Shown: positions 41,693-58,689 of the stretch, piece by piece
Layout of the letters: each line of letters starts with the position of its first letter
Position numbering within the stretch: the first letter of the stretch is position 1
Assembly: GCF_005116655.2 (NCBI RefSeq)
Contig: NZ_CP050698.1
Location: forward strand, 2,324,501 to 2,388,500
Length of the DNA stretch: 64,000 bases
Source: Desulfosediminicola flagellatus
Lineage (GTDB): Bacteria > Desulfobacterota > Desulfobulbia > Desulfobulbales > Desulfocapsaceae
Direction: 5' to 3'
Notes under the pieces: generated by a model
Database searches by the model: none
What the model saw: the letters and a program-made list of their open reading frames with translations, nothing else
What the model was told of the DNA's origin: nothing
Made by a program: the position numbers and the translations under genes

Positions 41693-41893
41693 TCAAACTT
41701 TTTCTACGTTATCTGCAGCAGGTCCTTTGGGGCCGTCGATAATTTCAAAGCTGACACGAGATCCCTCTTCAAGGGATTTGAAGCCTTCGGATCTTATTGC
41801 GGAGTAATGAACAAACACATCTGGTCCACCGTCTTGCTCGATAAAACCAAAACCTTTCGCATCATTAAACCATTTTACTGTACCTTCTGCCAT
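41693..41893 (-). CDS. Cold shock protein (CspA family)
   Basis: A 66-residue single-domain cold shock protein. Both nucleic-acid-binding motifs are intact, [15 protein letters not shown] (RNP1) and DVFVHYSAI (RNP2), followed by [19 protein letters not shown]. These proteins act as RNA chaperones. The start is the ATG at 41893 with AAGGAG eight bases upstream, rather than the ATG at 41899. The leader upstream is structured (see the alternative hairpins), as in other cold-shock genes. It is the only gene on this strand between the terminator and the 517-base gap upstream. Confidence 0.96.
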
Positions 41894-41923
41894 TGTCACT
41901 ACTCCTTTTGTACTCAGGCCCCT

Positions 41924-42314: not shown

Positions 42315-42344
42315 TTGACACCCTTTCCACCCTTCGTTAATTAT
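42315..42344 (+). promoter_or_regulatory. Putative promoter of oleBCD
   Basis: A perfect -35 box TTGACA (42315-42320) is followed after 18 bases by AATTAT (42339-42344, 4/6 to the -10). Transcription would begin near 42351, about 60 bases before oleB. A second TTGACT occurs at 42371-42376 with TATTAG (42396-42401) at a long 19-base spacing. Confidence 0.45.
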
Positions 42345-42410: not shown

Positions 42411-43283
42411 TTGAGTGTGATTCCCGTGTATCCTGAATTCCCGTTTACGTCTCATTATTTGCAACTTGGTAACGATCGCCTACATTATATAGACGAGGGA
42501 AGCGGACCTGTCATTGTTATGGTTCATGGGAATCCAACATGGTCATATTACTATAGAAATATAATAAAATTACTCAGTAAAGATCACCGTGTAATTGCAA
42601 TTGATCATATGGGTTGCGGGCTTTCAGATAAGCCCCAGCAGTATAATTATACCCTGGGACAGCATGTAGAAAACCTTGAAAAACTGTTGAATTCACTCAG
42701 TATCCACAGTTTTTCCCTTGTTGTGCATGATTGGGGTGGAGCCATCGGCATGGGGGTTGCCACAAAGTACCCTGAAAGAATAGAAAAAATCGTTGTCCTT
42801 AATACAGCAGCGTTTAGATCAAAAAGAATACCTTTTAGAATATCGATCTGTAAATATCCGATAATTGGTCCATTTATAGTCAGAGCTTTCAACGGTTTTG
42901 CCTGGCCTGCCACGTTTATGGCAGTGACAAAACCTATGCCTAAAAAGATATGTGAAGCATATCTTGCACCATATGACTCATGGAAGAATCGTGTCGCTGT
43001 CGCTGCTTTTGTTAAGGATATACCTTTAGAAAAACATCATGTAAGCTATTCGACTCTTGAAAAAATCGACAATGGATTGTCTACGCTCAAAGATGCAGGT
43101 GTCCCAATGCTCATTATTTGGGGTGGTAAAGATTTTTGCTTCAATACAATTTTCTATGATGAATGGAGAAAACGATTTCCTGAAGCTGAGTGTCATATGT
43201 TCCCAGATGCTGGTCATTATATATTAGAGGACTGCAGGGATGAGGTAGAGCCACTACTTTCAAGATTCTTTCGGACCAAATGA
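42411..43283 (+). CDS. oleB: OleB-like alpha/beta hydrolase (beta-lactone decarboxylase)
   Basis: A 290-residue alpha/beta hydrolase of the haloalkane-dehalogenase clade. The oxyanion-region motif is MVHGNPTWSYYYRNI, the nucleophile is Asp in VVHDWGGAIGMG (near 107), and the catalytic His is in DAGHYILED. In the Ole pathway OleB decarboxylates the beta-lactone made by OleC to a cis-olefin. Family and neighbours (oleC, oleD) support this over a dehalogenase. The likely start is TTG at 42411 or GTG at 42417. No Shine-Dalgarno sequence is visible. OleC follows after 15 bases. OleA, normally the first gene, is absent. Confidence 0.85.
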   Translation: MSVIPVYPEFPFTSHYLQLGNDRLHYIDEGSGPVIVMVHGNPTWSYYYRNIIKLLSKDHRVIAIDHMGCGLSDKPQQYNYTLGQHVENLEKLLNSLSIHSFSLVVHDWGGAIGMGVATKYPERIEKIVVLNTAAFRSKRIPFRISICKYPIIGPFIVRAFNGFAWPATFMAVTKPMPKKICEAYLAPYDSWKNRVAVAAFVKDIPLEKHHVSYSTLEKIDNGLSTLKDAGVPMLIIWGGKDFCFNTIFYDEWRKRFPEAECHMFPDAGHYILEDCRDEVEPLLSRFFRTK

Positions 43284-43298
43284 GATGAGGTTAATAGG

Positions 43299-44933
43299 AT
43301 GGTTAAAAATATAGCCGAAGCTTTCAACGACATTGCAGCGGTTCACGCAAACCGCATGGCTATAGCTGAGGCGAAAACCGGGAATCATGTCAGTTTCAGC
43401 GAGCTGAGTAGCTTGACCGACGGTTACGCCCATCTTTTACATAAACACGGGGTCAAACACGGAGATCGGGTAATGTTGATGGTGACCCCTTCTGTCGATT
43501 TTATCAGCCTCACATTTGCTCTGTTTAAAATTGGGGTGACAATAATCCTGATTGATCCGGGGATGGGGTATAAAAACCTATTGAAGTGTATTGAGGGAGT
43601 GCGACCATCAGTTTTTATCGGGATCCCCAAAGCGTGTCTCTTCAGTAAAATTTTTCGGACTCCGTTTAAAACAGTAAAAAAACATTTCTGTTGTGGTCAG
43701 TCATTTGGTCTTTTCGGATCTGATATAAAAAAACAGGCCCGAGTAATGTCAGGTTATGGCACATTTCCTGTTTATTCACCTTCAGATGACGATCTTGCTG
43801 CAATAATCTTTACAACAGGTTCCACAGGCCCACCTAAAGGTGTACGTTACGAACATTCTATATTTGCTGCCCAGCTTGATCGTATACGTGATTATTACGG
43901 AATAGATTCCAATCACACAGATCAACCTGCATTTCCATTATTTGCTCTTTTTGCAGCAGCGCTTGGTGCAAGTTCAGTAATACCTGATATGGATCCAACT
44001 CGCCCGGCCAAGGTCGATCCCGAGAAATTTGTCTCATCAATTAAAAAGTATGGTGTTACGTATTCCTTTGGTTCTCCTGCAATCTGGAATGTCGTAAGCA
44101 GGTATTGCATCCAGAATTCCATCAAGCTGGAAACCATACAAAAAATTTTGATGGCTGGAGCGCCAGTACCAGGAGAACTGCTAGAGCGTGTTTCTGCAAT
44201 AATTCCCGAATCTGCTCAGATATTCACCCCTTATGGTGCCACTGAAAGCCTGCCGATTGTCTCGATAGAAGGGAGAGAGGTGCTGGGTGAGACCTGGGAG
44301 AAGAGTCGTATAGGTAAAGGCACGTGTGTCGGAAGACCTTTACCTGGCATTGAACTCGCTGTTATGACAATATGTGATAAGCCTGTACGTCAATTTGACT
44401 CGGATTTACTACTTCCTCCTGAAGAGATAGGGGAAATAATCGTTAAAGGTGATGTAGTGACCAAGGCGTACGAAAACAATGATTCAGAAAACGAGAAAGC
44501 CAAAATTATTGATCGGGATACATTCTGGCATCGAATGGGTGACACGGGATACCTCGATAAATCCGGCAGATTATGGTTTTGCGGAAGAAAGGCCCATAGG
44601 GTCATAACTGAGAATGGTACGTTGTACACCATTCAGTGTGAATCCATTGTTAACGAGCATACTGACGTGTACAGATCCGCGCTGGTAGGCGTTACGGTAA
44701 GTGGGAGTGACTTTAAAAAACCCGTGCTCATCGTTGAACCGGTTAAAGAGTATGCTGGGGCAGTAGATACGCTTATTGCTGAAGTATCCAGGCTTGCTGG
44801 TGCGAGTGAGGTCACTCAAGAGATTACAACCTTTTTAGTTCATAATGATTTTCCTGTTGATATTCGGCATAATGCTAAGATATTCAGGGAAAAACTTGCA
44901 GTTTGGGCTGAAGAGGAATTACAGGTTAGCTGA
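43299..44933 (+). CDS. oleC: OleC-like AMP-dependent synthetase (beta-lactone synthetase)
   Basis: A 544-residue ANL-superfamily enzyme. The P-loop-like motif is AIIFTTGSTGPPKGVRYEH (near 171), followed by FTPYGATESLPIVS and the hinge region HRMGDTGYLDKSGRLWFCGR. OleC adenylates a long-chain beta-hydroxy acid and closes it to a beta-lactone. A fatty acyl-CoA ligase would look similar, but the flanking oleB and oleD and the short C-terminal domain (the ATP-ligase lysine region reads HNAKIFREKLAVWA) fit OleC. GAGG lies eight bases before the ATG. Its stop overlaps the oleD start by one base (TGATG). Confidence 0.88.
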   Translation: MVKNIAEAFNDIAAVHANRMAIAEAKTGNHVSFSELSSLTDGYAHLLHKHGVKHGDRVMLMVTPSVDFISLTFALFKIGVTIILIDPGMGYKNLLKCIEGVRPSVFIGIPKACLFSKIFRTPFKTVKKHFCCGQSFGLFGSDIKKQARVMSGYGTFPVYSPSDDDLAAIIFTTGSTGPPKGVRYEHSIFAAQLDRIRDYYGIDSNHTDQPAFPLFALFAAALGASSVIPDMDPTRPAKVDPEKFVSSIKKYGVTYSFGSPAIWNVVSRYCIQNSIKLETIQKILMAGAPVPGELLERVSAIIPESAQIFTPYGATESLPIVSIEGREVLGETWEKSRIGKGTCVGRPLPGIELAVMTICDKPVRQFDSDLLLPPEEIGEIIVKGDVVTKAYENNDSENEKAKIIDRDTFWHRMGDTGYLDKSGRLWFCGRKAHRVITENGTLYTIQCESIVNEHTDVYRSALVGVTVSGSDFKKPVLIVEPVKEYAGAVDTLIAEVSRLAGASEVTQEITTFLVHNDFPVDIRHNAKIFREKLAVWAEEELQVS

Positions 44934-45940
44934 TGAAAAAAGTTCTGGTTACAGGTGGTGGGGGATTTGTCGGGAAGGCAATTGTTAAAATGATTGTCGC
45001 AAGAGGGGACGAGGTACTGGTTGTAGGACGTCATAGATATAATGAAGTTGAAACACTTGGTGCCAGGTGTGTGGTTGGGGATATTCGCGATGGTGATTTC
45101 CTTATAAACGCAACAAAAGGTGTAGATGCCGTTTTCCACGTAGCTGCACTTGCTGGAATATGGGGCAGTTGGTCTGATTATCATTCTATCAATGTAATTG
45201 GTACTGAAAACGTTATTACAGCCTGTTTAAAAAATGCTGTACCATCTCTTATTTACACGTCAACTCCTTCCGTCGTATTTAACAGAACTGACATCCTTAG
45301 TGGTGATGAGTCACTACCATATCCGGATACGTTTTTATGCAACTACGCAAAAAGTAAAGTCATTGCAGAAACGAAGGTGCTTGCAGCAAATAATCATTCC
45401 TTAAGCACCTGCGCTCTGCGGCCACATCTCATATGGGGTCCTGGTGATCCTCATTTAATCCCCCGTCTCCTGAAAAAAGGCCTAAATGGAGAGTTGAAAA
45501 GAGTTGGTGGCGGGATTAATCGTGTTGATATATCGTATGTGGACAATGTTGGGCATGCTCATCTATTGGCTGAAGAAAATCTGGCTACCAGTAAGAGTGC
45601 TGCAGGCAAAGCATACTTTGTAAGCCAGGGTGAGCCTGTGAATCTCTGGGATTGGATAAATGATCTTTTTCAACAGGTTGGGATAAAACCGGTTATAAAA
45701 AATGTTCCTTTTGGTGTTGCATACTCTGCAGGTGCTCTACTTGAACTGGTTCATTCTTTATGTATGAAAGACAAGGAACCTCGTATGACCCGGTTTCTTG
45801 CTGAGCAACTTGCAAAATCACACTATTTTTCCACAGAAGCAATTGAAAGAGACCTGGGGTATACGCCAATTGTGTCGACCGCAGATGGAATGGTTAAACT
45901 GGTCAGCTGGATTAAGGAAAATGAAGATACGCTTCTCTAA
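44933..45940 (+). CDS. oleD: OleD-like NAD(P)-dependent 2-alkyl-3-ketoalkanoate reductase
   Basis: A 335-residue extended short-chain dehydrogenase of the 3-beta-hydroxysteroid-dehydrogenase group. The Rossmann motif is VLVTGGGGFVGKAIV, the Ser region is IYTSTPSVVF, and the catalytic YAKSK is near 137. OleD reduces the beta-keto acid made by OleA to the beta-hydroxy acid used by OleC. Gene order B-C-D with one-base overlap to oleC shows tight coupling. Its 3' end overlaps by 20 bases the start of a secreted M48 peptidase, so that gene may be part of the same transcript. Confidence 0.88.
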   Translation: MKKVLVTGGGGFVGKAIVKMIVARGDEVLVVGRHRYNEVETLGARCVVGDIRDGDFLINATKGVDAVFHVAALAGIWGSWSDYHSINVIGTENVITACLKNAVPSLIYTSTPSVVFNRTDILSGDESLPYPDTFLCNYAKSKVIAETKVLAANNHSLSTCALRPHLIWGPGDPHLIPRLLKKGLNGELKRVGGGINRVDISYVDNVGHAHLLAEENLATSKSAAGKAYFVSQGEPVNLWDWINDLFQQVGIKPVIKNVPFGVAYSAGALLELVHSLCMKDKEPRMTRFLAEQLAKSHYFSTEAIERDLGYTPIVSTADGMVKLVSWIKENEDTLL

Positions 45941-47333
45941 ATTATTATCAGTTGTTCTAATAATACTGTTTGTAGGCTTACCATGTTCGCGTCCTTCTTT
46001 TGCTTTTTCAATCGGTGAAGAACGTGAACTTGGAGAAAAGCTCCTCTACTCTGTACGCTCGACCTTTCCGTTGCTGGAGGATCCAGACCTTGTCCAGTAT
46101 ATCAACAAGCTAGGTGATGAGGTGCTGGCCGTTGCTGGATTGCAATATTTTAATTATCATTTTTTCCTTATAAAGGATGATGAATTTAATGCCTTTGCCG
46201 CGCCATCTGGACTGATTTTCTTCTACTCCGGCCTTATTAACTCGATGAACAGTGAAGATGAGCTGGTATCTGTTCTTGCCCATGAGATCGGTCATGTGGC
46301 AAAACGTCATCTTGCAGGTCGAGTGGAAAAGGGAAAAATTATTGGAGCAGCCTCCCTTGCAGTAGCCCTTGCGGCTCTGGCTTTAGGCGGGGGCGCCGCA
46401 ACTCAGGCTCTGCTCACGAGTTCACTAGCTGCCGGACAGAGTGCAAACCTGCATTATAGCCGAAAGCACGAGGAAGAAGCCGATTTAATGGCATACGGCT
46501 GGTTAAAAACACTCAAGCGCGATCCTCATGGTCAGAAAACAATGCTTGAGACCATGCGTCGCGTAAGTCGTTATAGAAGTGACAGGTTACCACAATATCT
46601 CCTGACTCATCCAAACCCAGAATTCAGGCTCGATTATATAGATACACTTCTTAAGATTGACGAAAATGAACTGACAACACACACGATAAGAGATGAGTTC
46701 GAATTCCTGCGTTTTAAGTATCGGATAATGGCTGAGACAATGGATGCAACGGTATTTCGGGAGCATCTCATTAGTGTGTTAAGTGATTCGCGTACAACAG
46801 CTTTTTCTAAAATAATGGCGAAATATGGATTGTCTCAGCTGGAGAGACATGCAAACAATTATTCAAGTGGCCAAAAGCTGATTGAAGAGGTTGTCGAAGC
46901 TCTGCCTGATAAGAATCTTTTACTAACAGATCAGGGAATACTTCACTTTGAAGCAGGGGAGTATGTTGATGCACGGATACTGTTAGAGAAGGGGTACAAT
47001 CAAAATGTTTCAGATATGTATTCGGCATTTTATCTTGGGAAAACGTATAAGGCCCTCGGAGATCTGAAGAAAGCTGAAAATCTTTTTAAGTCTGTATCCT
47101 ACCAAATGCCTGAATATTCAAAAGTATATTTTGAACTTGGTAGCATTGCATCACAGCAAAATCAGGAAATGCTTTCCTCGCTCAATTTAGGAAAATTTTA
47201 TTTGTACGAAGGTAAAATCAAACTTGCGAAGTTTAGTCTGAATAATGTTGTTAAGGGAAAAACTACAACAGAAAACATGAAGATAGAAGCAGAGCGATTT
47301 CTTGAAACTATTGAAAAGCTAGAGGAAAAGTAG
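45921..47333 (+). CDS. Periplasmic M48 metallopeptidase with TPR repeats (BepA-like)
   Basis: A 470-residue secreted protein. The start at 45921 gives a clear signal peptide (KLLSVVLIILFVGLPCS), with AAGG just upstream. The longer frame from 45798 lacks any such signal. The zinc protease motif is LAHEIGHVAKRH and the third ligand lies in KHEEEADLMAYGWL. After residue about 300 come helical TPR-like repeats (FEAGEYVDARILLEKGY; AFYLGKTYKALGDLKKAE). This layout matches BepA/YfgC, which assists outer-membrane protein assembly or degradation. It overlaps oleD by 20 bases. The functional tie to olefin synthesis is unknown, and it may simply share the promoter. Confidence 0.9.
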   Translation: MKIRFSKLLSVVLIILFVGLPCSRPSFAFSIGEERELGEKLLYSVRSTFPLLEDPDLVQYINKLGDEVLAVAGLQYFNYHFFLIKDDEFNAFAAPSGLIFFYSGLINSMNSEDELVSVLAHEIGHVAKRHLAGRVEKGKIIGAASLAVALAALALGGGAATQALLTSSLAAGQSANLHYSRKHEEEADLMAYGWLKTLKRDPHGQKTMLETMRRVSRYRSDRLPQYLLTHPNPEFRLDYIDTLLKIDENELTTHTIRDEFEFLRFKYRIMAETMDATVFREHLISVLSDSRTTAFSKIMAKYGLSQLERHANNYSSGQKLIEEVVEALPDKNLLLTDQGILHFEAGEYVDARILLEKGYNQNVSDMYSAFYLGKTYKALGDLKKAENLFKSVSYQMPEYSKVYFELGSIASQQNQEMLSSLNLGKFYLYEGKIKLAKFSLNNVVKGKTTTENMKIEAERFLETIEKLEEK

Positions 47334-52780: not shown

Positions 52781-53224
52781 TTAAAGGCCAGAAGCTAAGG
52801 CGCATGAAAAGTCAACCTGTACAGCAGTTTTTCCTTTAACACGTAAGGTACCCTTCATAAAGCTCACAGATGATAGAACTTCCTTAATGGATACCTTGAT
52901 ATCTATTTCATCACCGGGAAGAACAGGCCGTTTAAATTTAGCACCTTCAATTCGCGCAAGTACAGGAACTTTGCCATCGCTTTGTTGACCTTCAGATTCA
53001 AGGGCATAACTCATAAGCAAGGCCCCTGATTGGAAAATTGCTTCACACAAAATAACCCCGGGCATAATAGGGTGATCAGGATAGTGTCCTTTGAAAATAT
53101 CGAGGTCTGTCGGGATGGACTTTCGTGTAGAAATAGAATTTTCCGTTTTTTCAATAATTGAGTCAATCCATAGGAATGGCGGTCTGTGTGGAATTCTGTC
53201 GAGAATTTCCTGCTGAACCTTCAT
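52781..53224 (-). CDS. FabZ-like 3-hydroxyacyl-ACP dehydratase
   Basis: A 147-residue hot-dog dehydratase. The segments RIPHRPPFLWIDSI and FKGHYPDHPIMPGVILCEAI carry the catalytic His and Glu of FabZ. It would dehydrate 3-hydroxyacyl-ACP to trans-2-enoyl-ACP. The ATG at 53224 is chosen because GGAGG lies eight bases upstream. The longer frame from 53239 would overlap the upstream gene. It begins one base after the ketoreductase stop, so it is translationally coupled. It is the last gene of the cassette. A role specific to the cassette, separate from a housekeeping FabZ, is inferred from context. Confidence 0.88.
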   Translation of the reverse strand: MKVQQEILDRIPHRPPFLWIDSIIEKTENSISTRKSIPTDLDIFKGHYPDHPIMPGVILCEAIFQSGALLMSYALESEGQQSDGKVPVLARIEGAKFKRPVLPGDEIDIKVSIKEVLSSVSFMKGTLRVKGKTAVQVDFSCALASGL

Positions 53225-53225
53225 T

Positions 53226-53966
53226 CTATAGGCCTCCATTTATTTCAAGAACGGTTCCTGTTATATAAGCAGCCTTCTTCGATGATAAAAACATAACCGC
53301 ATCTGCAACTTCCTCAGGCTTGCCAAACCGACGCATTGGAACCATTTTTTTATAGGCGGAGAGTTGCTCTGGCGGCAGATCATTGATGAAATCTGTAGCA
53401 ATAAATCCTGGAGATACGCAATTGACAGTAATTTTCTTTTTAGCTGTTTCTTTGGCAAGTGATTTAGTTAAGGCGACCTGGCCGGCTTTTGAAGCTGCGT
53501 AGTTAGACTGGCCGGCAAACCCAAGATGTGCAACGGGAGAAGTTATATTAATAATCCTACCGAATTTATTCTTCATCATGAGCATTACTGCTGGTTTTGC
53601 CATAAGAAATGTGCCGGAAAGATTTATATCAATAACCGAATTCCAATCTTCATTTTTCATCAGGGCCAGCATGGAATCTCGGCGGATTCCAGCATTATTA
53701 ACTAGAATTTCAAGAGAGGTAATTGATTGTTCTATCTCCGCATAAAATGCGGATACCTGTTTCTCGTCGGAGATATCACATTTGTATAAGCGAAATTTTT
53801 CACCATATTGCTTACATTCGTCTGCAAACATCTCAGCAGCACGAGTGTTACCTCCGTAAACGCCTAATACTGTCGCGCCTTTTGAAAGTAAAGCCAGGGT
53901 GATAGCTCTTCCAATTCCTCGTGTGGCACCAGTAACTATTGCTGTTTGACCTGTAAAGTCCTGCAT
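53226..53966 (-). CDS. FabG-like 3-oxoacyl-ACP reductase (SDR)
   Basis: A 246-residue classical short-chain dehydrogenase. The cofactor motif is VTGATRGIGRAIT, NNAG is in ILVNNAGIRRDS, the catalytic Ser is in NITSPVAH and YxxxK lies in NYAASKAGQVAL. The C-terminal YITGTVLEINGGL is typical of FabG. It would reduce a 3-ketoacyl-ACP with NAD(P)H. It follows the CrtI-like gene by nine bases and is adjacent to the dehydratase, forming a reduction-dehydration pair. The KAS, ACP and oxidoreductases upstream suggest a dedicated chain-building pathway rather than housekeeping fatty acid synthesis. Confidence 0.88.
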   Translation of the reverse strand: MQDFTGQTAIVTGATRGIGRAITLALLSKGATVLGVYGGNTRAAEMFADECKQYGEKFRLYKCDISDEKQVSAFYAEIEQSITSLEILVNNAGIRRDSMLALMKNEDWNSVIDINLSGTFLMAKPAVMLMMKNKFGRIINITSPVAHLGFAGQSNYAASKAGQVALTKSLAKETAKKKITVNCVSPGFIATDFINDLPPEQLSAYKKMVPMRRFGKPEEVADAVMFLSSKKAAYITGTVLEINGGL

Positions 53967-53975
53967 AATATTTCC

Positions 53976-55382
53976 TTATACGCTGCGAATGTAGCCATCA
54001 ACATCATTAGAGACAATGACACCGTAATTAATAGCACCTAACCACCCGGACATAATTATGCCAACAGAGCCAACATGAAAGAGGCCTGGAACTTCTTTGA
54101 AAATAGTTCGTGATATATCAAGGCCTTCAAATTTGGTTCCAAAGGATGTTCCGTCGGTATGGAGAGTGTATCTGTTAAATGTGCGTGGAGTTGCAGCCTC
54201 GAGCCAGTCGATTTTCTCTTTAACACCAGGGAGGTATCTATCAAGATCAGTAACAGCCCGAGCAATCATATCTTCTTTCTCTTTTTCATACTGCAGGTCA
54301 GACAATGACATCCAATCATCGTATCGACCGTTCATTGATGCTACTATAGTGTAACGATCATGACCAGGCCGTGTTTTCGGGTAATATACTGAAAATGTTT
54401 TAGATTGAGTGTGAATGTCCAGGAGTTCAGACGAATCAAATTCAGGTGAAGTTGAGGTGAAGAGCAGATCGCCCACGTCCTGGATTGATTCACCATCCTT
54501 TACCCCCATATAAACCTGACAACTTGAGTTGTTTACCCGTATCGCATCTGCTTTTTCAAGGAATTCATCGGAAAAACAGGAACGGTCAGTCAGGTTATGG
54601 ATGGTGTTGGTGATTCCGCTATTGGAAACAACGGCTTTGGAAGTGATCTCTTTCCCTTTCACCAGGACACCGGTTACACGGCCATTTTCGACGAGTATAT
54701 TATCAACTTTGGCATTAGTGCAGATGGTTACGCCATTTTTTTCCAACTCGTCAGACATCATATGAATGAGCTTATCTGTACCGCCCTCAAATGTGAAAAC
54801 ACCGCGATTCATGAAGTTAGAAAAAACTATGCCATAGGTGATTGCAGGATCTTCAAGCGTTGAACCGTTTGCATACGTAATCGGTTCCATGAGCAGCCGG
54901 TGAACATCGGTTCTTCCAGGAAAAAATTGTTCGAACAATTCCCTGGTGGTCATGGACTGATCGTCATAGAAATTCATTGCTGCAACAGTTTCGAAGAAAC
55001 TGTTTACAGTCTGTAAAGGAATTTTGAACTTCGTGTTAAGGATTGAGATGAAGTCTTCTTTATCAAATGTTGTGCGCAAGTTGAATTGTGGATTGTCAAA
55101 GACGATATTCTTTAACTGCACAATTGACTTCATTATCTCTTTGTTCCAATACTTCTTGCATGTCTTCACCATACCGTATGGGAAACCATGAAGAGAAATA
55201 TCAAAAATATGCCCCTTACGTTTGAACCAGGTTGCGAGACCGCCAAGCCTGTGATGGTGTTCAAGGAGAAGGACTTTATGGCCGCAATAGGCGAGTCTGT
55301 TTGCTGTGGTGAGACCGCCTAAGCCTGAGCCGATAATAATTACGTCGTAATTGTCTAAGGTCTGGGAAAACGATACTGGCAT
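53976..55382 (-). CDS. CrtI/phytoene-desaturase-like FAD oxidoreductase A
   Basis: A 468-residue flavoprotein. The ADP-binding motif is [20 protein letters not shown], followed by the GG-doublet region [16 protein letters not shown]. The C-terminal FAD-binding segment reads [20 protein letters not shown]. Overall length and layout match phytoene desaturase-like (CrtI) and carotenoid isomerase-like oxidoreductases. The substrate is not known: no phytoene synthase or other carotenoid gene is in the window, and its neighbours process ACP-bound chains. A desaturase, saturase or isomerase acting on an acyl chain is inferred from context only. It lies nine bases before the ketoreductase and 58 bases after the second such enzyme. 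Confidence 0.82.
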
Positions 55383-55440: not shown

Positions 55441-56826
55441 TTATATTTTCGGTAAAATGTGCTGATTGACGATTGAAACGCCGCTCAACATTGAACCTAC
55501 AATACCAAGAAATCCTTGATCAGTACCAGCAAGAAATAAGTTGTCAAAGCCAATGTAACCATCTTTTATCTTTGTTGGACTGCCGTAGATGGCGCCATGT
55601 TTCTTTGCTGTGTATCTTTCTATGGTCAATGGCGTGAAAGTGTCTTCATATATAATATTGTTTCGAAAATTTCCAACGATTTTCTCAACAACTTCAAGTG
55701 AACGCCGGCGTGAAATACTTTTCTCTTTAAGATAGTTCTCGGTATCATTGCGTATTTCGTGCCATTTTCCATATGAGGCGAGATGGGTTGAACGAATTTC
55801 AAGGGAGTTATGCAACGGTAACCCATCAAAATTGTAAGGCATGCAAATAACTCCGCTCATGTAATCTGCGAAGTGACTCGGTTGTTTGTAATTGAACTGA
55901 TCGGCCGCATTAAAAAAGATAACGGTTTTGTCCTTAGGTAATGAATCTTTGGCAGTAGCAGGGAGTTGGAAAATAGATTCGATAAAACCAAGTCGACCAG
56001 AATCAGGTTCCGTATCCTGCAGCTCTAAGATCGATCGCGTTTCCTGATGACCGATTGTTGAAAGAATATGGTCACATTCAATAATTTCTCCAGAGGATAA
56101 ACGAACGCCATAAACAGAATTGTTTTTATAGAGTATACGTTCAACCTTCGCGCCAAGCCTGATTGTTCCGCCGAGGTGCTTTAAATGGTCTGAAAAAATA
56201 CTAAGAAAATCCTTAATAGTTCCACTTGGTCGAAAGAAACCTTCCCTATATATAGCTTGAAACATGATAGCAAATTGAGAGAGGTCCATATCATTTTCGA
56301 CACTCGATCCATAATACATGAGTGGACAGAGTAACATATCAACTAATAGCTGGTCCTTCAGGGTGCTAAGAAGGTAGCTTTTGGCTGATCGAAAAGGTGT
56401 CGGCTTAAATGGATCAAATTGTTCAAGGAAGGTACAAAGCTCATTGAAGCTATTTTCGGCACGGGGAAACTTTAGTCGTATTTCTTGACGAAGTGTTTCG
56501 AAATCATTTGAAAAAGTGAGTGACTCTCTATTGCTGAATACAATTTCACTCTGCTTCTGCTGGTGAAAAATCAGTGATTTTCTATTAAGCTTAAGTTGGC
56601 GGAGCAACCTGTTTAATGGTGCACGCTTATTGCCTGGTTCTGCATAGTTGGTGATTGCATGCAGACCTGTTTCGAAAAGAGTTTTATTGCGGAAATAGTA
56701 AGAGTTCAGTCCGCCAAGGCGCGTATGCATCTCAAGCAGCAGAACATCCGGTGTGAATCTGGCTAAGCGAATAGCGGCGGCTAGCCCAGAGAGGCCGCCG
56801 CCGATAACTATACATGGAGCTTTCAC
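55441..56826 (-). CDS. CrtI/phytoene-desaturase-like FAD oxidoreductase B
   Basis: A 461-residue flavoprotein related to, but clearly different from, the next one. The N-terminus is CIVIGGGLSGLAAAIRLARF, then LGGLNSYYFRNKTLFETGLH, and the C-terminal FAD region reads DNLFLAGTDQGFLGIVGSML. GTG is the start at 56826, four bases after the ACP stop, so translation is coupled. A pair of divergent CrtI-like enzymes beside one ACP suggests two separate redox or isomerisation steps. Length is normal for the family. The substrate is unknown. Confidence 0.82.
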   Translation of the reverse strand: MKAPCIVIGGGLSGLAAAIRLARFTPDVLLLEMHTRLGGLNSYYFRNKTLFETGLHAITNYAEPGNKRAPLNRLLRQLKLNRKSLIFHQQKQSEIVFSNRESLTFSNDFETLRQEIRLKFPRAENSFNELCTFLEQFDPFKPTPFRSAKSYLLSTLKDQLLVDMLLCPLMYYGSSVENDMDLSQFAIMFQAIYREGFFRPSGTIKDFLSIFSDHLKHLGGTIRLGAKVERILYKNNSVYGVRLSSGEIIECDHILSTIGHQETRSILELQDTEPDSGRLGFIESIFQLPATAKDSLPKDKTVIFFNAADQFNYKQPSHFADYMSGVICMPYNFDGLPLHNSLEIRSTHLASYGKWHEIRNDTENYLKEKSISRRRSLEVVEKIVGNFRNNIIYEDTFTPLTIERYTAKKHGAIYGSPTKIKDGYIGFDNLFLAGTDQGFLGIVGSMLSGVSIVNQHILPKI

Positions 56827-56830
56827 CAGA

Positions 56831-57082
56831 TTAGGCGTCTTTAAGAAGTGGTTCCAGATAGGCTACGCAGCTGTTAAGCGTCGCAAGCTGTGGATAATCT
56901 TCTTCTGGAATCTGGAGTTGGTGACGTTTGCGCAGTTCCATGACGATATCGAGAAAGTCCATAGAATCAAGGTCCAGCTGATCACGAAGCGGTTCGTCTG
57001 GGTTAAGGCTATCGAAATCCGCTTCATCATCAATGTCTTCGATAATTTCTAATACAAGATCTTTTATTTCTTCATTGGTCAT
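56831..57082 (-). CDS. Acyl carrier protein
   Basis: An 83-residue acidic protein with the phosphopantetheine attachment serine in LDLDSMDFLDIVMELRKRHQ. Helix pattern and size are those of a discrete ACP. The ATG at 57082 has GGAG six bases upstream. A TTG at 57094 would start inside that sequence. The DSMD motif in place of the common DSLD, and the position between a KAS II gene and the flavoenzymes, suggest a dedicated carrier for this pathway. It must be activated by a phosphopantetheinyl transferase elsewhere. Confidence 0.92.
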   Translation of the reverse strand: MTNEEIKDLVLEIIEDIDDEADFDSLNPDEPLRDQLDLDSMDFLDIVMELRKRHQLQIPEEDYPQLATLNSCVAYLEPLLKDA

Positions 57083-57244
57083 GGGGTTCTCCAAACTCTA
57101 CGTTAAAGCAAAATATCTAGTTCGATGCTTTCTATCTCTGAAAGCATGCAAGTTTCGGCAAAAAATTGAAAACTCCTTCTATACCACACCCGCAGATACT
57201 TTTTAAGGTTTTTTTAAGTGAATCTACCTTTAAAGAAGTTTATC

Positions 57245-58486
57245 TCAATTCTCATATTTTTTTATGATGACAGTTGAGTTGATTCCTACCATACCGAATG
57301 AGTTATTGAGAATTGTGTTAACTGAGTCAACTTCAATTGCTTTGTTGATCACGAGATTTTTAAGTTCACACTCAGGGTCGAGTTCGTCGATGTTGATGGT
57401 CGGGTGAATCATATTATCAAAAAAGCTTGGAAGATTACCAGCGAGTTCAAGTACTCCTGCAGCACCCATGGCATGTCCAATAATGCTTTTGGTATTGTTT
57501 ACATAGGTGGTGTCACTTTCAGAAAATACTTCACGAATTGCTTTACATTCCTCAATATCGCCTTGCTTGGTACCTGTTGCGTGGGTATTTATCAAGTCAA
57601 TATCTTCTGGTTTCAGATTTGCTCTGTCGAGAGCCAGCCTCATGCACTCAGCCTGACGTGGCCCATATGGAAGAACAAAATCCCTGGCGTCGGAGTTCAT
57701 TGCGTAACCAACAACTTCACCATAAATTCGTGCACCTCTTTCAAGGGCTTTCTCCAGATACTCCAGAACGTAGATACATCCACCTTCAGATATGACTATA
57801 CCATTTCTGGATTGATCAAAAGGTTTAGAGGCTTTTTTGGGATCAGCATTTTCACCAAGGGCGTTCTGCGCAGCAAAGCTTGCAAATATACCAAATGAAC
57901 CGGTTGACTCTGAAATTCCGCCAGCTAGTGCAACATCAACTTCGCCGAGTCTGAGCATTTGAACTGCCTGAATGATTGATGCGTTACCAGCAGCACATGC
58001 AGCACCTATTGAGTAATGCGGTCCTGTTGTGCCAAGACTCAATGTGATTTCCCCAGCAGGATTGTTGAGGACAGTACGAGGGTTGTGATGATGCGTCCAG
58101 TAACTGGTATTATAGTCATACTGGCTGATGTTGAATACTTCGTTTTCTGTCTCAACAGTTCCATGCTCTGTGAGACCTATATAGATACCCACCTTTGATT
58201 TATCATATGAGGAAATTTCGAGATCAGCATCAGCAAGGGCTTCGTGGGCGCAATAGACAGCAATGCAACCGGCACGGGTGCCTTTTTTATTTTCTTTCTT
58301 TTTTCGATATTTTGTTTCGGGAAAGGTGCAGATTCCTGCAGGTGCCTTCCCAAAATACCTGAGATCTATTTCTGTGATCTCACTTTCGCCTTTAAGTAAT
58401 TTTTCTCTATATTCTGATATGTTAGAGGCGTTTGGTGAGGCTAGGCCTATACCGGTGATAACTATTCTGCGTGTGTCCATTGTCAT
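57245..58486 (-). CDS. FabF-like 3-oxoacyl-ACP synthase (KAS II type)
   Basis: A condensing enzyme of about 413 residues. The nucleophile Cys lies in SIGAACAAGNASIIQ (near 165), and the two catalytic His residues are in NTHATGTKQGD (near 303) and NTKSIIGHAMGAAG (near 338). All three are present, so it should be an active elongating synthase and not a chain-length factor. The frame allows starts at 58495, 58486 or 58480. None has a good Shine-Dalgarno sequence. It is the first gene of the minus-strand cassette and is separated by 162 bases from the ACP gene. Specificity is unknown. Sequence alone does not distinguish it from primary FabF. Confidence 0.88.
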   Translation of the reverse strand: MTMDTRRIVITGIGLASPNASNISEYREKLLKGESEITEIDLRYFGKAPAGICTFPETKYRKKKENKKGTRAGCIAVYCAHEALADADLEISSYDKSKVGIYIGLTEHGTVETENEVFNISQYDYNTSYWTHHHNPRTVLNNPAGEITLSLGTTGPHYSIGAACAAGNASIIQAVQMLRLGEVDVALAGGISESTGSFGIFASFAAQNALGENADPKKASKPFDQSRNGIVISEGGCIYVLEYLEKALERGARIYGEVVGYAMNSDARDFVLPYGPRQAECMRLALDRANLKPEDIDLINTHATGTKQGDIEECKAIREVFSESDTTYVNNTKSIIGHAMGAAGVLELAGNLPSFFDNMIHPTINIDELDPECELKNLVINKAIEVDSVNTILNNSFGMVGINSTVIIKKYEN

Positions 58487-58689
58487 ATCTATCAATAATA
58501 ATTTGAAATTATTAAGTTAAATGAAGGGGCCGATAACTGTTGTGAAAACTACAATACATTACAGTAAGGCATGCCAAAAAAAATACCGAACCAACCGACT
58601 CTAGGATATATTGGGTTAAACTTCAAGGAAGAATAGACAAAAATACAGCAGCGATGTCTGAAGTTGCCTGAACCTTGGTGAGACTATTG

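Follow-up and report, generated by a model that had tools for sequence, protein, structure and literature searches.

The DNA examined here, called the window throughout, is a 64,000-nucleotide (nt) stretch of the chromosome of Desulfosediminicola flagellatus (Desulfocapsaceae; contig NZ_CP050698.1, positions 2,324,501 to 2,388,500), and our subject is a set of three Ole pathway genes on its forward strand. The first, oleB (42411-43283, starting with TTG at 42411 or GTG at 42417), encodes a 290 amino acid (aa) alpha/beta hydrolase of the beta-lactone decarboxylase type; it is followed after 15 bases by oleC (43299-44933), for a 544 aa beta-lactone synthetase of the AMP-binding superfamily, which in turn overlaps by a single base (TGATG) with oleD (44933-45940), for a 335 aa 2-alkyl-3-oxoalkanoate reductase of the extended short-chain dehydrogenase/reductase type. 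OleC passes the cut-off of model PRK09274 (662 bits against 478), and its next-best matches are both olefin beta-lactone synthetase models, each under its narrow cut-off; the best models for OleD are two 2-alkyl-3-oxoalkanoate reductases (372 and 368 bits), and in the model search OleB appears as a haloalkane-dehalogenase-like alpha/beta hydrolase. Residue conservation was checked across 31-35 relatives: the HGNPTW motif, the nucleophile Asp of HDWGG and the His of GHY in OleB are kept in 29-30 of 31, the adenylation motifs and the C-terminal Lys of OleC are conserved, and GGGGFVG and YxxxK are kept in all 33 OleD proteins compared. All three genes are present and intact, and coordinates, models and residues agree with an earlier sequence-only reading that had recognised three close or overlapping genes with the hallmarks of OleB, OleC and OleD.

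That reading had also pointed to a non-coding gap upstream of oleB, where oleA would be expected, and the gap is as described: no oleA remnant was found in it or elsewhere within the window, and no structured RNA in it matched Rfam. Two explanations had been offered, namely that oleA lies elsewhere or that OleB, OleC and OleD convert another beta-keto acid. The proposed search for an OleA-type ketoacyl synthase III (KASIII) was made across the genome, which is a single contig of 6.75 Mb, and recovered three KASIII genes. L001 is the FabH within the usual fatty-acid operon and L002 a FabH paralogue of 350 aa, while L003 (genome positions 5957997-5959067) is an oleA on the same chromosome, 3.59 Mb from oleBCD. 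L003 scores 433 bits with the NCBIfam model PRK09258 (cut-off 285), against 112 and 95 bits for the other two, and its nearest structures in the Protein Data Bank match at E 4e-66, followed by a steep drop to 2e-24; the top entries, whose database title is just '3-oxoacyl-[ACP] synthase III', are the OleA of Xanthomonas campestris. L003 keeps the catalytic Cys, His and Asn together with the partner-site Glu, a residue specific to OleA enzymes, in place of which the two FabH proteins carry Met and Cys. An intact oleA thus exists elsewhere in the genome, and its adjacency to oleBCD, a usual but not essential trait of OleABCD systems, is missing. L002, a KASIII of no assigned role in the same genome, might be thought to supply the OleBCD substrate in place of L003, but it fits FabH models, matches the OleA-type model weakly (95 bits) and carries Cys at the position of the OleA Glu, so that we give this idea almost no credence.

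The separation is not peculiar to this strain. Of 93 Desulfocapsaceae genomes surveyed, 90 have OleA and 88 have OleC, most of the missing cases coming from incomplete assemblies, and not one of the 85 genomes with both has them close together. The two share a contig in only six of these 85, all complete or nearly complete chromosomes, at distances of 2.0-3.6 Mb. Among the 80 named OleA loci listed, the genera of the family are Desulfopila, Desulforhopalus, Desulfocapsa, Desulfofustis and Desulfoprunum, and Desulfotalea psychrophila is not one of the 80. The comparison of neighbourhoods in related Desulfobacterota, likewise proposed by the earlier reading, showed that other families of the same order keep oleABCD together, with oleA directly before oleB (genomes G180, G237, G144, G209 and G106; in a further one, G263, the locus is interrupted by contig ends). 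The family-wide separation of oleA from oleBCD is therefore a family trait. In phylogenetic trees the family forms one clade (support 100/100 for OleA and 82/97 for OleC), placed in both beside the other families of the order, and this agreement indicates that oleA was relocated and not replaced by a foreign oleA; a single relocation in the ancestor of the family would be the simplest history. Each half has since gained fixed neighbours, an M48 metalloprotease gene after oleD and the genes for AMMECR1 (AmmeMemoRadiSam A) and a YkgJ-like protein after oleA, the latter two overlapping or following oleA family-wide (L125:6056-7263); the YkgJ-like label is our own, as no family model matched.

These results also bear on the second explanation, in which OleB, OleC and OleD, with no OleA involved, would turn some other beta-keto acid into a beta-lactone or a short alkene. 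While the lack of oleA in the window and gap and the conserved neighbourhood that oleBCD has of its own would suit it, an intact oleA is present here and in nearly all of the family, the OleA and OleC phylogenies agree, the two proteins co-occur in the family and across the phylum, and oleB, whose product destroys the lactone, is retained. The last point also sets this genome apart from the oleACD beta-lactone clusters, which lack oleB. We regard this explanation as highly improbable; seen against the whole genome, an oleBCD locus lacking oleA is nothing unusual.

Like the M48 gene, a second gene set, of fatty-acid type, went unmentioned in the sequence-only reading; it is found 7 kb downstream of oleD, beyond tol-type and other genes. 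Encoded on the reverse strand between 52781 and 58495, it comprises a FabZ-like dehydratase (52781-53239), a FabG-like ketoreductase (53226-53966), two CrtI-like flavoproteins (CrtI1, 53976-55382, nearest to a carotenoid isomerase model but under its cut-off; and CrtI2, 55441-56826, 24% identical to CrtI1), an acyl carrier protein (ACP; 56831-57094, 87 aa, with a DSMDF attachment motif) and a FabF-like ketosynthase (KAS; 57245-58495). We refer to it as the CrtI/FASII module, for its CrtI-like proteins and type II fatty acid synthesis (FASII) enzymes. Its FabI-like reductase is found 21 kb from oleA. In the other families of the order, orthologues of the module genes stand immediately before oleA: in G237 the order is KAS-ACP-CrtI2-CrtI1-FabG-FabZ-FabI-oleA-B-C-D (the ACP there being an ACP-sized frame), G180 and G209 are nearly the same, and in the distant G122 oleA-B-C-D is followed by CrtI1-FabG-FabZ-FabI. 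Within the family, oleC and CrtI1 share a contig in 39 genomes (median distance 10.8 kb); the pair of oleA and FabI does so in 28 genomes, at a median of 18 kb, and oleA was never near CrtI1 in the family genomes compared. The ole genes and the CrtI/FASII module are therefore parts of one ancestral cluster that was later split in this family, and a chromosomal break inside that cluster is well supported by the fact that each half keeps some of its members. To speak of only a split locus, as the earlier reading would have done had a conventional oleA and C31-type olefins come to light, says too little: the oleA is indeed there, C31 hydrocarbons are on record for a member of the same family, and both pieces retain genes of a larger whole.

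The association extends beyond the order. We sampled 247 genomes of the phylum, with E-value limits of 1e-90 (CrtI1) and 1e-150 (PfaA), and found OleA in 25 of them, spread patchily over about 16 families. Eleven of the 25 have CrtI1 and 14 have PfaA, none has both and none has neither (Fisher p of about 1e-27 for the union of CrtI1 or PfaA with OleA, uncorrected for kinship). Outside this order, but within the phylum, the gene preceding oleA is PfaC-like and belongs to a polyunsaturated fatty acid synthase. A Pfa acyl source was also considered for the window genome and rejected: no PfaA scored above the cut-off (best 333 bits against 1010), and the genome has polyketide synthase fragments alone, below cut-off.

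We propose, with a probability of roughly three in four, that D. flagellatus has a complete but physically split Ole pathway, and that the CrtI/FASII module probably supplies it with acyl chains for polyunsaturated C31 hydrocarbons. By analogy with established OleABCD biochemistry, the distant OleA would join two acyl chains into a 2-alkyl-3-keto acid, which OleD would reduce; OleC would then close the beta-lactone, from which OleB would remove CO2 to leave an internal alkene. The acyl chains would arrive as acyl-ACP from the type II set 7 kb away and its FabI-like partner near oleA, the module filling, independently of oxygen, the role of a Pfa synthase and leading to hydrocarbons of the C31:8 and C31:9 type. 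For this transfer of acyl chains to OleA and for the C31 polyene product, we infer from synteny, co-occurrence and the product of a family member. The latter is Desulfotalea psychrophila, also of the Desulfocapsaceae, in which C31:8 and C31:9 hydrocarbons were measured at 5% of the lipid extract by Rattray and colleagues (PMC2649909).

Several points weigh against this proposal. OleD falls under its narrow curated cut-off (580), and the model library holds no OleB-specific model, the OleB call being made from fold, residues and place beside oleC. C31 polyenes are reported for the relative D. psychrophila and, for the organism of the window, predicted from its genes, and the anammox homologues of the CrtI-like proteins did not desaturate phytoene (PMC4790861). 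One branch of the OleA tree (100/100) parts the Pfa-linked from the CrtI-linked groups, so that the perfect partition does not represent 25 independent events. CrtI1 occurs without OleA in four of the sampled genomes (G095, G103, G141 and G177), and PfaA without OleA in four; the module is therefore not exclusive to Ole. G177 carries three CrtI1 copies and no OleA, from which it follows that the module has another use too.

Part of this would suit an alternative in which the split Ole pathway is fed by housekeeping C14-C18 acyl groups and yields C27-C33 olefins with one to three double bonds, the module having some other role, for instance in making polyunsaturated fatty acids of phospholipids. 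OleA enzymes in other bacteria act on ordinary acyl-CoA, the canonical fatty-acid genes (PlsX, FabH, FabF) are present elsewhere in the genome, and the four genomes with CrtI1 and no OleA point the same way. Against this stand the clustering of the module with the ole genes, seen in two distinct arrangements, the presence of the module or PfaA in every OleA-bearing genome sampled and the C31:8 and C31:9 of D. psychrophila, and we consider the alternative unlikely.

Turning to known systems, the genome shares with the OleABCD of Xanthomonas and Shewanella the four enzymes, their catalytic residues and the B-C-D order, and differs in an oleA that lies megabases away family-wide and in a different linked gene set. 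Another related system is the combination of Pfa and Ole that makes hentriacontanonaene in Shewanella and Geobacter bemidjiensis, a link drawn by Shulse and Allen (PMC3098273) and by Allemann and colleagues (PMC6463001), according to whom Shewanella OleA takes acyl-ACP intermediates from Pfa; a 2016 review likewise explains C31:9 by Pfa products (PMC4882568). Common to that combination and the window genome are a dedicated source of acyl chains next to oleA or not far from it, probable in the window genome, and a C31 polyene product, expected there, but separate type II enzymes and CrtI-like flavoproteins take the place of the megasynthase. PMC2649909 reports, for anammox bacteria and D. psychrophila, FASII clusters that include phytoene-dehydrogenase-like genes, with no pfa-type pathway found; it credits the hydrocarbons to that FASII extension, and its accessible text contains no mention of ole genes. 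These Desulfotalea and Kuenenia clusters (PMC2649909, PMC4790861) share with the module FabF-like, ACP, FabZ, FabG and CrtI-like genes; a pair of CrtI-like genes in D. psychrophila whose locus tags are consecutive (DP2405 and DP2406) can be likened to the pair in the window, and hydrocarbons without pfa are a further point in common, measured in D. psychrophila and predicted for the window genome. The published proposal, in the text accessible, does without Ole genes, whereas in the group studied here Ole is tied to the module both by position and by phyletic distribution; no ladderane is expected from this module. In the literature searchable outside subscription journals, the link between the CrtI module and Ole appears to be unreported.

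On balance we lean towards a more specific version of the proposal, in which the module would be a discrete oxygen-independent synthase of polyunsaturated acyl-ACP, its CrtI-like flavoproteins setting or isomerising the double bonds, and would replace Pfa as the partner of OleA in anaerobes. If true, this would account for the long-unassigned C31:8 and C31:9 hydrocarbons of Desulfotalea, give a function to homologous genes discussed for ladderanes, bear on the related anammox genes and offer a testable answer to how strict anaerobes without Pfa make highly unsaturated hydrocarbons. Should the CrtI-like flavoproteins supply the double bonds, they would constitute a second bacterial oxygen-free route to polyunsaturated acyl chains.

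The flanks of oleBCD contain further features. Upstream of oleB on the forward strand is a promoter-like TTGACA / 18 nt / AATTAT (42315-42344, 10 of 12 matches). The TTGACA cited by the earlier reading does exist at 42315 but is weak evidence for a promoter; such sites number 11 in the region, compared with 12.8 expected in shuffled sequence, and given this lack of enrichment the promoter was rejected as evidence of function. On the far side of the gap lies a cold-shock protein gene (41693-41899, reverse strand, a 68 aa open frame), which is outside the pathway. Downstream, the M48 gene (45921-47333, forward strand) encodes a BepA-like metalloprotease with tetratricopeptide repeats and overlaps the end of oleD by 20 nt; it adjoins oleD in 18 of 21 loci of Desulfocapsaceae and in none of the outgroup loci. 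A functional tie between the BepA-like protease and membrane hydrocarbons would be a candidate.

Three observations concern other loci. G298, a genome of another family, carries two KASIII genes immediately ahead of oleBCD (L117:2936-4871), the first keeping Cys, His, Asn and Glu and the second retaining Glu without Cys, His and Asn, which suggests a heterodimeric OleA. G249, G290 and G159 have OleC matches and no OleA at E 1e-50, and may possibly represent true oleBCD, or oleC, without an ordinary oleA. The window genome itself has a second lipid-type cluster at about 5.538-5.561 Mb (L164:2768-14342 and L165:2833-5220), with CrtI-like, ketosynthase, acyltransferase, AMP ligase, glycosyltransferase, MMPL protein and radical-SAM genes (one radical-SAM and two B12-binding radical-SAM proteins); with its radical-SAM, AMP-ligase and membrane-protein genes it is a candidate counterpart of the second locus of the Desulfotalea-anammox type (DP1853-DP1860 in D. 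psychrophila), and by composition it resembles the anammox and Desulfotalea clusters discussed for ladderanes.

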